DNA of 64,000 bases from Agriterribacter humi (GTDB lineage: Bacteria > Bacteroidota > Bacteroidia > Chitinophagales > Chitinophagaceae). A model generated the notes under the pieces. It had not been told where the DNA came from. It saw only the letters and a list, made by a program, of their open reading frames with translations, and did not search any database. Numbering within the stretch: the stretch's first letter is position 1; each line of letters starts with the position of its first letter. The stretch covers positions 1 to 64,000 of the forward strand of contig NZ_VOHQ01000003.1 of NCBI RefSeq assembly GCF_009192765.1, written 5' to 3'. Positions 3,336 to 55,631 of this stretch are shown piece by piece. The position numbers and the translations under genes were made by a program.

Positions 3336-3380
3336 ATAGATTTATGATTTCTGATTTTTTGATTTCTGATTTTTGATCCG
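3336..3380. repeat. GATTTCT/GATTTTT repeat, upstream of gmd
   Basis: The words GATTTCT, GATTTTTT, GATTTCT, GATTTTT, GATCC follow each other with a 7-8-nt period in the spacer between gmd and the minisatellite. No gene is visible in 3324-3494. Confidence 0.55.
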
Positions 3381-3494: not shown

Positions 3495-3660
3495 CCTGCA
3501 ACCTGCAACTTGCAACTTGTGCCCTGTAACTTGCACCCTGCAACCTGTAACTTGCACCCTGCACCCTGCACCCTGCAACTTGCACCCTGCAATCTGCAAC
3601 TTGCAATCTGCCCCCTGTACCCTGCAACCTGCAACCTGCACCCTGCAACCTGTACCCTGA
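3495..3660. repeat. Heptanucleotide minisatellite, 23-24 units
   Basis: The stretch divides without a single phase break into 23 seven-base units plus CCTGA. The consensus is YYTGYAM (CCTGCAA, CTTGCAC, CCTGTAA and similar), with TG fixed at positions 3-4 of nearly every unit. It ends directly at the stop codon (CTA, 3661-3663) of the glycosyltransferase to its right. Because 7 is not a multiple of 3 and the unit lacks stops, several frames stay open on both strands, giving false reading frames of 67-79 codons. Confidence 0.9.
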
Positions 3661-28264: not shown

Positions 28265-30646
28265 TCACCCGAAGAGTTTTTTCCAGTTGCTTTTCTTTTG
28301 GTTTTTGCTCTCCTGGAAATAATCACCGCCATATCCATATCCATACCCATATCCATAATAGCTTCCTCCACCATAGCCGTAATAGCCTTTATAGCGGCCC
28401 TGGGTTTGTATATCGTTGATCACCAGTCCCATGTTGGGCAGGCGTTTTTGCTGGTACAGGTCATCCACCATGCTCAACTGCCTTTTAAGGGTATAGCCAT
28501 GGCGCACAATATAGAGGCTGGCATTGGCAAAGGCGCTGAGGGTAAAAGCATCGCTTACTAAGCCTACGGGTGCACTGTCTATGATGATATAATCAAACCG
28601 TATTTTCAGCTCTTCAAACAATCTCCCCACCTGTTGGTCTAGTAATAATTCTGAAGGGTTGGGCGGCACGGGCCCGCAGCCAATTACGTATAGATTTGAA
28701 AATTCGGGTACCGGCTGCACAATTTCTTCTATGCCCGCATTGCCGATAATAAAATTACTGAGGCCTTTTGTAGTTTGCATATCCAGACCCTTCAACAGGC
28801 GGGGCTTTCTGATGTCAAACTCAAGCACCACCGTTTTTTTGCCGGTAAGCGCAAGGGCGGCGCCATAATTGGTGGCCACAAAGGATTTGCCTTCGCCGCT
28901 TACAGAGGAAGTAACCAGTATTACCGGTTTATTGATCCTACTCACTAAGTACTGCAAATTGGTGCGCATGATGCGGAACTGCTCGGCCACTACCGTTCGG
29001 CTGCCCGCCTGAACGATTAGCGTCTCCTCGCCCGCATGACCTATTTCACCGATAATGGGCGCCTGGGTTTGCCTTACGATCTCTTCGCGCTCCCTGATTT
29101 TATCGTTCAGCATTTCTATAAGCGCTATAATTCCCACAGGGATCAGTATACCCGCCAGCAGGGCTATCAAATAAATGTTTTTCTGATTGGGCTTTACCGG
29201 TGTACCCGAACCGGTAGCCTCTTCCAACGGGCTGGAGCTGGCAACCGTGGCAGCAGCGGCAATGGCGGCCTCCTCCCTTTTTTGCAGCAGGAACAGGTAG
29301 AGGTCCTGCTTGATCTTTTGCTGGCGTTCAATATCTAAAAGGCCCATGGCCTTGGAAGGCACTTTGCGGATGGCCGCATGGGAGCGTTCTATTTCTTCTT
29401 TTGTTTTATTGGAAGCGATGCTGTAAGAACGCTTTACATTTTTCAGGGCTTCCAGAATCTGTTCCCTTAATTTTTCCAAATTCCTGTCAATAGCCGTTAC
29501 CGAAGGATTAGCAGGTCCTGTGGTTTGCAGCAGGTTATTGCGTTGTAACTGCAAACCATTATACTGGTTGAATAATGGTGATAATACAGGCTCCTCTATG
29601 CCGAGGTTAACAGGTACCAGGCTGTTGCGGTTGCCCGGCTCCTGCATATATTGGAGCAAATAATCCAGTATGCCACTTTGCACTAGCTGCGTATTCAATT
29701 GCCTGTTATTCTCGGAAAGCGTTTCATAATACTGGGTGGATTGCTGGGTTAGGTCAATTACTTCATTTTTTTCGCGATATTTTAATAGTCCGCTTTCTAC
29801 GCCGCCCAGTTCATTTTTAATGGTATCTAAGCGTTCATCAATGAATTGCATGGTTACCTGCGAGATCCTCCGTTTATCTTCAATATTCATTTTGCCGTAT
29901 TCATTCATCAGTTCATTGATCACGTCCTTTCCCAGGGCGATATTATCCGTTTCCATGGAAATATCGAGAATGGTGGCCTGCTCTATGGTTTGGGCGGTAG
30001 TAATGGCTGAAACAAGACTGGCAGCGGCAGCCTCAAGGGGCCGGTAAACAATGATAAAATGATCGCTGCTATAGCCGGCAAAGGATACGGAAGCCACTTT
30101 ATTAAGCCTGAAAACACCATTTCGCGTCTCGAATATTTTACCATATTCAAGGCCGGCATTCCCATTCAGGAACCTGAATCCTTTTTCGGAAGCTTCTATT
30201 TCAAAACTAAACGCATTGGCAGAATCTTTAAGCGAGATAATATCCAAATGCAGGGGGGAGGCTCCATAAATGTTTGAAGTGCGTACATTGCCTTTATTAT
30301 AATAACTCACCTGCAGGTCAAGATTTTTGGCCACACGTCGCACCAAGGGCTTGGATTTTAAGATCTCCAGCTCGTTCTTCAGGTTTAGGTTACTCGGAAA
30401 CATAAACATATTTTCCAGTGCCTCTCCGCTGGCATTGTTGTTGTTTTCTTTGTTGATAAACAGGCTACCACTCACATTGTAAATAGGAGTGGCGTATCTT
30501 ACTTTAAGAAAGGCCAGTACGAGGGCAATCAGCACAAAGGCTACCAGCATGGGCCAATACCGCAAATATTTAAAGATGAATTCCTTTAAATTGAATTCTT
30601 TTGCCGCAGGCATGCTGTCGAAACCTGTATCGTCATTTGCTGACAT
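28265..30646 (-). CDS. wzc: Wzc-like polysaccharide copolymerase / tyrosine autokinase
   Basis: A 793-residue inner-membrane BY-kinase. Two membrane segments (about 30-50 and 500-520) flank a periplasmic Wzz domain with coiled-coil stretches. The cytoplasmic kinase follows: Walker A SSVSGEGKSF near residue 585, Walker A' VVLEFDIRKPR, Walker B DYIIIDSAPVG. The C-terminal tail is a tyrosine cluster with 11 Tyr in about 30 residues (YKGYYGYGGGSYYGYG region), the autophosphorylation site. It controls chain length and export with Wza, and the CpsB-like phosphatase at 156-896 would reverse phosphorylation. The tail is encoded by five near-identical hexamers (28329-28358), which could vary in number. 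Confidence 0.95.
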   Translation of the reverse strand: MSANDDTGFDSMPAAKEFNLKEFIFKYLRYWPMLVAFVLIALVLAFLKVRYATPIYNVSGSLFINKENNNNASGEALENMFMFPSNLNLKNELEILKSKPLVRRVAKNLDLQVSYYNKGNVRTSNIYGASPLHLDIISLKDSANAFSFEIEASEKGFRFLNGNAGLEYGKIFETRNGVFRLNKVASVSFAGYSSDHFIIVYRPLEAAAASLVSAITTAQTIEQATILDISMETDNIALGKDVINELMNEYGKMNIEDKRRISQVTMQFIDERLDTIKNELGGVESGLLKYREKNEVIDLTQQSTQYYETLSENNRQLNTQLVQSGILDYLLQYMQEPGNRNSLVPVNLGIEEPVLSPLFNQYNGLQLQRNNLLQTTGPANPSVTAIDRNLEKLREQILEALKNVKRSYSIASNKTKEEIERSHAAIRKVPSKAMGLLDIERQQKIKQDLYLFLLQKREEAAIAAAATVASSSPLEEATGSGTPVKPNQKNIYLIALLAGILIPVGIIALIEMLNDKIREREEIVRQTQAPIIGEIGHAGEETLIVQAGSRTVVAEQFRIMRTNLQYLVSRINKPVILVTSSVSGEGKSFVATNYGAALALTGKKTVVLEFDIRKPRLLKGLDMQTTKGLSNFIIGNAGIEEIVQPVPEFSNLYVIGCGPVPPNPSELLLDQQVGRLFEELKIRFDYIIIDSAPVGLVSDAFTLSAFANASLYIVRHGYTLKRQLSMVDDLYQQKRLPNMGLVINDIQTQGRYKGYYGYGGGSYYGYGYGYGYGGDYFQESKNQKKSNWKKLFG

Positions 30647-34177: not shown

Positions 34178-34551
34178 GAGGTAAAAAGCAATTCAAGTTG
34201 CAGGAGAGGAGGATTGGGATGCGGGAAAGAGGGTTTAAGATTGAGCGTGTGCAGGGGCGGGGATAGATTTCTAAGATGTTACAGGTTACAGGTTTCAGGG
34301 GGAAAAGCCGTGGGCGATGCAAAAAACGATAAAGACAATCTTTGACTTCTCTCCTTTCACCCTTTCACTGTTTGTACTCCTTTCGGATTTCGGTTTTCCA
34401 GTCTTCGGAATTGCCTTTATCTGGTTTTTGTTATTTGCTATCTGGTGCTGTCGGCTGTATTCCTTCGTATTTCAAATTTCCAATCTTCGGATTTTCTTTA
34501 ACATCTTGCTATGGTTAAGAAATAAGAAAAATATTAACTTCGTTGCCTGCA
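34178..34551. repeat. Spacer with degenerate heptamer words
   Basis: No gene is apparent before the small gene at 34552. Repeat words include TTCAAG TTGCAGG (34193-34205), TTACAGG TTACAGG TTTCAGG (34275-34296) and a 7-nt-phased run TTATCTG GTTTTTG TTATTTG CTATCTG GTGCTGT (about 34417-34452). Confidence 0.55.
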
Positions 34552-37953: not shown

Positions 37954-38211
37954 CAAACCCATGAGACTTGCGCGATGGCAATGGCAGAGTGGCCTCATAG
38001 GTTTGGAGCGGGGGAAGAGAAGACCTGTAATACCAAATAGCAGGAACCAAATGACAGGAAACAAATAAGATATAGACACTTCGTTCCCCGCCGCGGCGGG
38101 CAGGCTCAGCATGAGGAAAATCCGAAGCTGGGAGTCCGTAATTAGAAAAGTAATCCAATAAACTACAAACTCCTGAGTACAAGATTGCCATTTTAAATCT
38201 CAAATCTCCTT
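37954..38211. repeat. Spacer with heptamer words
   Basis: No gene is seen between zwf and pgl. On the complementary strand 38024-38064 divides into TTATTTG, TTTCCTG, TCATTTG, GTTCCTG, CTATTTG, GTATTAC. AAACTAC AAACTCC and AAATCTC AAATCTC follow at 38161-38208. A short palindrome CCCGCCGCGGCGGG is at about 38088-38101. Confidence 0.6.
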
Positions 38212-41780: not shown

Positions 41781-42098
41781 GAGACGGATTTGAGATTGTG
41801 ATTCAGGGCACAGGTTTCAAGTTGCAGGGAGGGTTCGCCAATGAGTGCTTATCGGTTGTGGTTGTCAGCGATCAGATCAGTAGCTACCAATGGCAGAATG
41901 TATTTTTTTTGTTGTAGCGCTCTCATAGCTCACAGCCGGTCGCTGACTGCCTTCTTTCGGATTTGGGATTTTATTGGTTCTTATTATTTGGTTCTTGGTG
42001 CTTTATTTCAGATTTCGGATTTTTGCCTTCGCACTTTATTTGGTTCTTGTTATTTGGTTCTTTTCTTAATATTTTAGGATTCACATTTTCACATTGCT
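41781..42098. repeat. Spacer of heptamer-period words
   Basis: The 318-bp spacer has no gene. It contains GCACAGG TTTCAAG TTGCAGG (about 41808-41828) and a long 7-nt-period tract (about 41970-42065) built from TTATTTG, GTTCTTG, GTGCTTT, ATTTCAG, ATTTCGG, ATTTTTG. Phase slips by one base in places. Confidence 0.65.
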
Positions 42099-43318: not shown

Positions 43319-43413
43319 CCCGCAAAGAGCGCAGAAGAAAAATGGCAGCAAATTTTTTTTACGGTTTTGAATTTAAGGAAACTATAAACCATAAACTACA
43401 AACCACAAACTCC
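43319..43413. repeat. AAACYAY heptamer run in spacer
   Basis: A GCAAAGAGCGCAGAAGAAAA word is followed by five phased heptamers AAACTAT, AAACCAT, AAACTAC, AAACCAC, AAACTCC (about 43379-43413). The rest of 43191-43318 is featureless to the eye. Confidence 0.6.
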
Positions 43414-51729: not shown

Positions 51730-51857
51730 ATCCTGTAAAGGTATTCTTGCTACGGTAAAAATAAAAACCGGCTTGATTGGTTATTGCTGCCCCGCATTTG
51801 GAGTGCTGTACACCAAAACCGCTATACGCAGTTTCCAACTTCGCATCACTCGCTATA

Positions 51858-51908
51858 ACGAAGTCTCCAGACTTCGTATCACTATGTTCTCCCGGGACTC
51901 CTGTCCCG
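51858..51908. repeat. Two adjacent palindromic hairpins
   Basis: ACGAAGTCT-cc-AGACTTCGT (51858-51877) is a perfect 9-bp stem; CGGGAC-tcct-GTCCCG (51893-51908) is a 6-bp stem. Both lie in the spacer between nagB and typA and look like a dispersed palindromic repeat rather than a terminator, since neither is followed by T's. Confidence 0.6.
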
Positions 51909-55446: not shown

Positions 55447-55631
55447 AGTTAAATGCAGGACACAATCCGAAAGAAAATCATCTAAACGATAAACCACAAA
55501 CTTATAAACTATAAATCCGCTCCATCTCAAACCTGCTGGCCGGAGGTATTAAATTTCAAATCTCAAATGCTTGCATGTTTTAATAAAAAGATTTAATTTA
55601 ACAGTGCAATTAGTTCTCTAAATTTAATGTC
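55447..55631. repeat. Spacer with AAACNAY and AAATYTC heptamers
   Basis: AAACGAT AAACCAC AAACTT AT AAACTAT (about 55485-55515) and AAATTTC AAATCTC AAATG (55552-55569) repeat with a 7-nt period. No gene seen. Confidence 0.6.

Follow-up and report, generated by a model that had tools for sequence, protein, structure and literature searches.

Tandem seven-base words in intergenic spacers of Agriterribacter humi and related Chitinophagaceae

The window analysed here, a 64,000-nt stretch of Agriterribacter humi DNA, is part of contig C23 of a 5.69 Mb genome in 34 contigs (G000). Its convergent spacer at positions 41781–42098, located between a gene for an OMP_b-brl_3 outer-membrane protein and an opposite-strand cytidine-deaminase-type gene, contains a forward-strand array of TTATTTG/GTTCTTG words and TTCGGATTT modules (41970–42065), in which an exact 14-mer is present twice. 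A first-pass annotation had noted that unlike words in many spacers of the window repeat with one period, and had proposed that one mechanism, and not independent microsatellites, generates them. The question raised by this locus is how many different words in one genome come to have the same step.

Seven-base periodicity in the window and the genome

Words of the TTATTTG/GTTCTTG family recur elsewhere in the window. Specifically, a degenerate TAATTTG/GTTCCTG-GTGCTT copy is located at 2180–2205 and a TTATCTG/GTTTTTG tract at 34417–34452, both on the forward strand, while a reverse-strand copy, ACCAAATAACAGGA, is located at 38024–38064 in the zwf/pgl spacer, which also contains an AAACTAC tract (38161–38175) and an AAATCTC tract (38193–38208). 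The glucose-6-phosphate dehydrogenase of the window is 93% identical to that of an uncultured Sphingobacteriales bin and 85% identical to that of Terrimonas sp. NS-102, which places the window among Chitinophagaceae. The longest array of the window, with about 23 units of CCTGCAA/CTTGCAA/CCTGTAA/CCTGCAC, is at 3495–3660, in a spacer whose left part holds a GATTTCT/GATTTTT array (3336–3380). The remaining forward-strand features are a CCTGCAA/CCTGTAA array at 124–158; a GGTTACA/GGTTCA/GGTTGCA tract, of the reverse-complement type of CCTGYAA, at 915–940; an AAACTAT/AAACTAC tract at 1121–1148; a GTTACAG/GTTTCAG array at 34275–34299; a short CAGGTTT/CAAGTTG tract in the left part of the convergent spacer, at 41808–41828 (lag-7 identity 0.57); an AAACTAC/AAACCAC array at 43379–43413 (lag-14 identity 0.86); an AAACCAC/AAACTAT tract at 55485–55515; and an AAATTTC/AAATCTC tract at 55552–55569.

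Each of 16 coordinate pairs from the annotation was measured at lags 4–10 and 14. Lag 7 exceeds lags 4, 5, 6, 8, and 9 at all 16, confirming that the listed places repeat with period 7. Lag-7 identity is 0.57–0.89 at 12 places and just 0.41–0.53 at 2180–2205, 34417–34452, 38024–38064, and 41970–42065; at 38024–38064, lag 10 (0.42) is marginally higher than lag 7 (0.41). At 34417–34452, 38024–38064, and 41970–42065, lag 14 (0.56–0.59) exceeds lag 7, as for a 14-mer that comprises two different heptamers.

We sampled 862 kb of G000 (about 15% of the genome; 425 spacers, 110,997 bases). In this non-random sample, spacers show an excess of lag 7 over the mean of lags 6 and 8 of +0.0092 (bootstrap 95% interval, 0.0044–0.0142), an excess of lag 14 over the mean of lags 13 and 15 of +0.0077 (0.0035–0.0124), and a further peak at lag 21. 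Coding DNA shows a 3-base rhythm alone, with no peaks at lags 7, 14, or 21, and is excluded as the source of the signal. Within this sample, the lag-7 excess over lags 6 and 8 that the annotation had anticipated is therefore present, and it is a property of spacers and not of genes. The modest size of the average excess is explained by most spacers having no detected array (38 of 362 have one). The sampled spacers contain 30 period-7 tracts, 4 inside the window and 26 outside, whereas second-order simulation of spacers gives 0.0 and length-scaled coding DNA gives 0.6; arrays are thus nearly confined to spacers, as had been expected, and chance is excluded.

Several of the sampled stretches are on contigs where words were already known, and array densities are therefore not free of bias. 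Gene calling used a simple ORF rule (at least 80–120 codons), such that small genes may fall into spacers and gene ends are ORF ends. Arrays were detected through the likeness of neighbouring units, and one tract may count at two periods. The first detector hid arrays close behind stronger ones, making its tract counts slight undercounts; an improved detector splits neighbours.

Period preference, word relatedness, and dispersal

Across eight sets (1,738 spacers, 421,531 bases), the first detector yields 1, 1, 169, 86, 4, 5, 11, and 4 tracts at periods 5 to 12, and the improved detector yields 1, 1, 187, 95, 4, 5, 13, and 5; periods 7 and 8 comprise 255 of 281 and 282 of 311 tracts, respectively. 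Period-8 tracts number 64 in G096, a relative from another genus, 13 in G123, a relative of G096, and 3 in G000. In G096 they occur alongside 68 period-7 tracts, and 7 is thus not the sole period. Four genomes contain 30, 10, 22, and 68 period-7 tracts, versus 0.0 in simulated spacers. Within the window's genus, with G001 and G011 outside the sampling, period-7 arrays are present in samples of G000, G002, G003, G004, G005, G006, and G008, where the conservation in sister genomes that had been named as support stands, and are absent from samples of G007 (200 kb), G009, and G010 (60 kb each), where it fails. The zwf set comprises 76 loci, including a few Dyadobacter loci from beyond the family. 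A literature search, mostly without subscription journals, did not turn up any description of arrays with many 7/8-base words from Chitinophagaceae.

To compare words, arrays were aligned by rotation and strand, with natural heptamers from array-free spacers as controls. The alignment reveals a common skeleton, approximately AACYTNN, with 3.40 bits versus 2.05 in controls (sd 0.06, maximum 2.19) for 62 arrays of G000, G006, and G008, and with 3.22 versus 2.22 bits for 68 arrays of G096. For 20 arrays of zwf loci, there is a small excess over column-permuted controls (2.78 versus 2.48 bits, maximum 2.75). Common descent of the words in a genome may give part of the skeleton. Register is retained over long distances, with an identity of 0.42–0.45 at 8–12 units versus 0.24 off register. 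Adjacent units have an identity of 0.745, versus 0.636 when permuted, and units five apart have an identity of 0.577 (65 arrays, four genomes); because arrays were found by neighbour likeness, the comparison of 0.745 with 0.636 is biased towards a slippage or duplication reading. In one G005 array, GCTATTA gives way to GTTACAG with the step retained. The 106 arrays of G096 give 60 distinct consensus strings and the 22 arrays of G000 give 15, near variants being counted separately, and by eye the listed words mostly lack GGG. In a G096 locus (L186, 1135–1332), we observed a tandem 35-base higher-order unit comprising the five heptamers AAATCAC, AAACCTC, AAATCGC, AAGAACC, and AAATAAG.

The words are dispersed. 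With at most 1 mismatch, and with adjacent matches in one array counted separately, TTATTTGGTTCTTG matches 97 times in G000 (28 of these exact; reversed control, 1) and 167 times in G006; in the remaining 36 searched genomes, matches never exceed 8 per genome and are no more frequent than those of the reversed control. CCTGCAACCTGCAA was searched in 98 genomes: it has 135 matches in G000, 115 in G096, and 34 in G008, and none of the remaining 95 has more than 17. Of the TTATTTGGTTCTTG contexts compared with 2 mismatches allowed (29 from G000, 18 from G006), many, though not all, lie in a composite repeat, roughly CTTCGGATTTC...GGCTTCGGATTTGAATTTTATTTGGTTCTTGT-ATTTGGTTCTTGGTGCTTT, and some are chance matches in genes. 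The array at 41970–42065 is one copy of this dispersed composite repeat, and inter-locus copying is therefore needed in addition to local generation. Thus, the part of the original proposal that set microsatellites aside stands, given the skeleton excess, the retained register, and the recurrence of words, whereas a single generating enzyme or process is unproven.

On a slightly better than even judgement, the spacers carry lineage-specific dispersed intergenic repeats made of degenerate 7-base tandem words, with 8-base words too in some relatives. Words would spread among loci through the copying of composite modules, arrays would lengthen and shorten in register by tandem duplication (i.e., slippage), and template switching would homogenise the units of an array and perhaps also the two arms of an inverted pair. 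Inter-locus copying and in-register duplication would together account for most observations. Slippage by itself would give varied unit lengths and cannot put one 14-mer at dozens of loci, which counts against it as the sole process. Tolerance of arrays in spacers downstream of genes would explain their persistence, helped in some cases, perhaps, by the two-way 3′-end hairpin that an inverted pair forms. For the unit length of 7 or 8, the leading guess is a polymerase-contact length (Mrazek et al., as cited in the portion of PMC4679880 used here).

Position, folding, and inheritance of arrays

Summed over five sets, arrays occupy 18 of 232 divergent spacers, 128 of 747 co-directional ones, and 46 of 203 convergent ones; in G096, 12 of 40 divergent spacers contain them. 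In convergent spacers, the median distance from array to nearest stop is 4 nt in G096 (39 arrays) and 5 nt in G123 (11 arrays). Arrays of co-directional spacers tend towards the stop in G000 (16/21), G096 (44/72), and G123 (6/9), and not in G006 (3/8), G008 (9/18), or zwf loci (6/17). Orientation relative to genes, a check proposed with the original claim, was counted for ten word patterns; the counts are small (0–22 per pattern and genome) and show no consistent sense/antisense bias, and gene orientation is excluded as the organiser. G-rich words are at the left and C-rich words at the right of the spacer in 186 of 252 cases; in three genomes, this geometry is weaker in array-free spacers (566/953) than in arrays (148/204; p = 0.0005).

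Some arrays in G096 and G008 are inverted pairs that would fold to long hairpins, and similar pairs are seen by eye in G123. Same-spacer inverted pairs are above control for 0.18 of 57 pairs in G096, 0.36 of 11 at zwf loci, and 0.33 of 3 in G008, and for 0/8 in G000 and 0/2 in G006; among the 57 pairs of G096, inverted word matches exceed direct ones (0.18 versus 0.05). Folding z-scores below −3 are obtained for 0.32 of 19 array spacers versus 0.12 of 60 others in G000, 0.44 of 18 versus 0.21 of 43 in G008, and 0.44 of 59 versus 0.25 of 60 in G096, and a very stable predicted hairpin is located at L204:8064–8245 (z −12.8). No part of the window matches Rfam at gathering score, which excludes a known structured RNA family there.

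Comparison of G096 with G123 provided 55 comparable orthologous spacers (mean flank identity, 85.7%); comparison of G000 with G006 provided 1 usable spacer. Arrays are present in both G096 and G123 at 20 spacers, in G096 only at 8, in G123 only at 0, and in neither at 27 (Fisher p = 8e-9; same with the improved detector). By length of the shorter spacer, the corresponding counts are 6/7/0/11 below 150 bases, 9/0/0/14 at 150–400 bases, and 5/1/0/2 above 400 bases. A two-unit word (at most 1 mismatch) is common to 15 of the 20 orthologous pairs, versus 0.16 of 380 non-orthologous pairs. The other 5 sites have no common word, and at some of these the period also differs, e.g., CATTATCA (8) versus CAAACCA (7). 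Identity is 0.66 within arrays versus 0.77 outside. In one spacer, inspected by eye, both arms are altered, from GTGATAAT to GTGCTAAT-type words. Pairing within the own species exceeds cross-species pairing in 12 of 14 array spacers (p = 0.017), and array-free spacers show the same (14 of 21; p = 0.026).

These results bear on a second reading, in which inverted arrays would be selected 3′-end hairpins, acting as two-way terminators or mRNA 3′-end stabilisers, and the periodicity would be a by-product, an arm that slips by one word still being able to pair. The avoidance of divergent spacers, the short array-to-stop distances that G096 and G123 show in convergent spacers, the very stable hairpins together with the more frequent low z-scores in array spacers of G008 and G096, the excess of inverted over direct matches in G096, and the inheritance of array sites between G096 and G123 all favour this reading. 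It does not explain the many arrays without a matching arm (by test, there are no arms in G000) or the absence of period-7 arrays from the sampled G007, G009, and G010, and arm coevolution is not above the array-free control. We consider selected hairpins possible but unlikely, and retain dispersed tandem-word repeats as the preferred reading. If arrays do act at transcript ends, they would be a fast-evolving class of 3′-end elements.

Two further observations concern hairpins. A 280-base period-8 hairpin in G000 (contig C1; L086, 517–798; z −7.3) comprises GTAAGACC-type units that precede inverted ones of CTTACC type, and spacer hairpins in zwf flanks of G008 and G003 (L128, L131) are of a CACGAATGCACGAAT ... 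ATTCGTGCATTCGTGG type, which is another word family.

Known heptamer repeats and less probable explanations

Some arrays in G096, G008, and (by eye) G123, though none of 8 pairs tested in G000, resemble, in being tandem 7/8-base units paired on opposite strands at variable distance, the paired sites of Geobacter metallireducens, which comprise the octamers GTTGCTYN and TCTCCGTS[Y] and the heptamer MTYCTGA, with none identified in G. sulfurreducens in the portion of the report used here (PMC2700814). The Geobacter words are few and fixed, with one conserved word per class, and are read as global-regulator sites, whereas the words here are many (60 strings in 106 arrays of G096 and 15 in 22 of G000) and drift or change where the site itself is inherited. 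By analogy with the binding-site idea put forward for the Geobacter pairs (same excerpt of PMC2700814), a repeat or nucleoid protein might read a word or word pair with 7–8 base spacing. The skeleton, degenerate yet common to arrays, would suit such a protein, but one specific binder is ill-suited to so many words per genome and to inherited sites where the word was at times replaced, and we regard this reading as improbable.

A dedicated writer, i.e., a polymerase or templated process that puts 7–8 base words at gene ends with the word freely chosen, would account for the sharp preference for 7 and 8, for the 60 consensus strings of G096 (many of them near variants), and for the orthologous sites without a common word or with a different period. 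We consider it very improbable: words are mostly inherited (15/20), and no candidate gene emerged. In particular, reverse transcriptase (PF00078) has 0 matches in the three array-bearing genomes G000, G006, and G008 but 4 in G007, where 200 kb contain no period-7 tract, and is excluded as the writer. REP/REPIN palindromes are linked to RAYT transposases; to our knowledge, tandem words are no defining feature of these elements. Here, unlike in REP/REPIN, the number of Y1_Tnp genes does not track array abundance, G096 having 1 match and the most arrays and G007 having 9 matches and no period-7 tract in 200 kb, which excludes RAYT-type transposases; across the 12 searched genomes, array abundance follows the number of neither reverse transcriptases nor Y1 transposases. 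REP/REPIN are themselves described as dispersed intergenic palindromes (in the excerpt of PMC3733652 used). It is likewise very doubtful that gene 3′ ends in some Chitinophagaceae have word slots, in which the slot is inherited and a process refills it with 7/8-base words from a common grammar, the word and even the period being replaced at a minority of sites.

Least credible are ordinary independent microsatellites, or chance, which would make neighbouring units alike, as from slippage, but are a poor account of one period over many words, of near-confinement to spacers, of a skeleton beyond chance, of the same word at many loci, and of period-7 tracts that simulated spacers do not yield.

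Dispersed, mostly intergenic heptamer arrays similar to those described here are known for GGGAATC in Xanthomonas and GGGGA(C/T)T in Nostoc, where, in the parts of the report used, arrays are perfect or heterogeneous, have no leading/lagging preference, and have positions more conserved than controls, and where two Xanthomonas genomes have 70 and 75 cases of two convergently oriented arrays (PMC4692102). As far as those parts go, each genome there has one G-rich word type, studied for G-quadruplex formation (PMC4692102); the arrays here have many words, most of which by eye contain no G tract, and in the relative G096 also period 8.

TAACTGA heptamers of Beggiatoaceae, Cyanobacteria, and some Bacteroidetes are likewise located in spacers with a patchy spread over lineages; the excerpts of the report describe other heptamers mixed in, indels mostly in 7-base steps between two Cyanothece strains, and, in Maribeggiatoa, a location mostly just upstream of start codons (PMC4679880). 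In contrast to this start-codon side, 16 of 21 co-directional arrays in G000 are nearer the upstream stop. TAACTGA is not enriched over its reversed control in G000 (3 matches versus 10) or across 12 genomes (2–12 versus 0–34; largest surplus, 4 versus 0 in G004), which excludes membership in this family.

Long simple sequence repeats of the type defined by Mrazek in 2007 reportedly consist of near-perfect copies, whereas the units here are degenerate, with the neighbour identity given above, and have a common skeleton. The tandem 7-base unit and mainly intergenic location are as in the heptanucleotide class of those repeats, which is their commonest class, and as in the tandem heptanucleotides of Calothrix (Mrazek 2007 and Calothrix as cited in portions of PMC4679880 and PMC4692102). 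Among repeats with 6–9 base units, a subset is highly enriched in prokaryotic phyla, 7 not being singled out in the excerpt used (PMC12699852), and repeats with 4–11 base units tend to normal or weak over-representation (PMC4060949, in part). Mrazek and colleagues asked why bacterial tandem repeats favour 7 (as cited in the excerpt of PMC4679880). Heptamer repeats are thus already described in other bacteria, and the arrays here are a many-worded variant; the features that differ are the number of words per genome, the presence of 7 and 8 together in G096, and word drift with occasional replacement at inherited sites. Many words have the same step in one genome, 8 is the sole strong alternative, in a relative, and array sites outlast word drift or change between two related species, which makes the 7-base preference testable.

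Other repeats were observed alongside the arrays. In the window, spacer words with another step are located at 949–975 and 1021–1065 (ACGCAAAGA, with period 9, and a string CTGTGTGCTTCTCTGTGCC...TTCCGTGG); a 33-base unit with palindromic parts ACTTCG/CGAAGT is present twice at 51820–51883; and the hexamer CCATAT is repeated about 4.8 times at 28329–28357, within a long ORF (28265–30646). The zwf-pgl operon spacer of Chitinophaga silvatica (L054) contains a perfect inverted repeat with about 44 bases per arm. In G096 (L178, L179, L183), the motif CTGTATTTC / GAAATACAG is seen by eye beside several arrays and is a possible element boundary.
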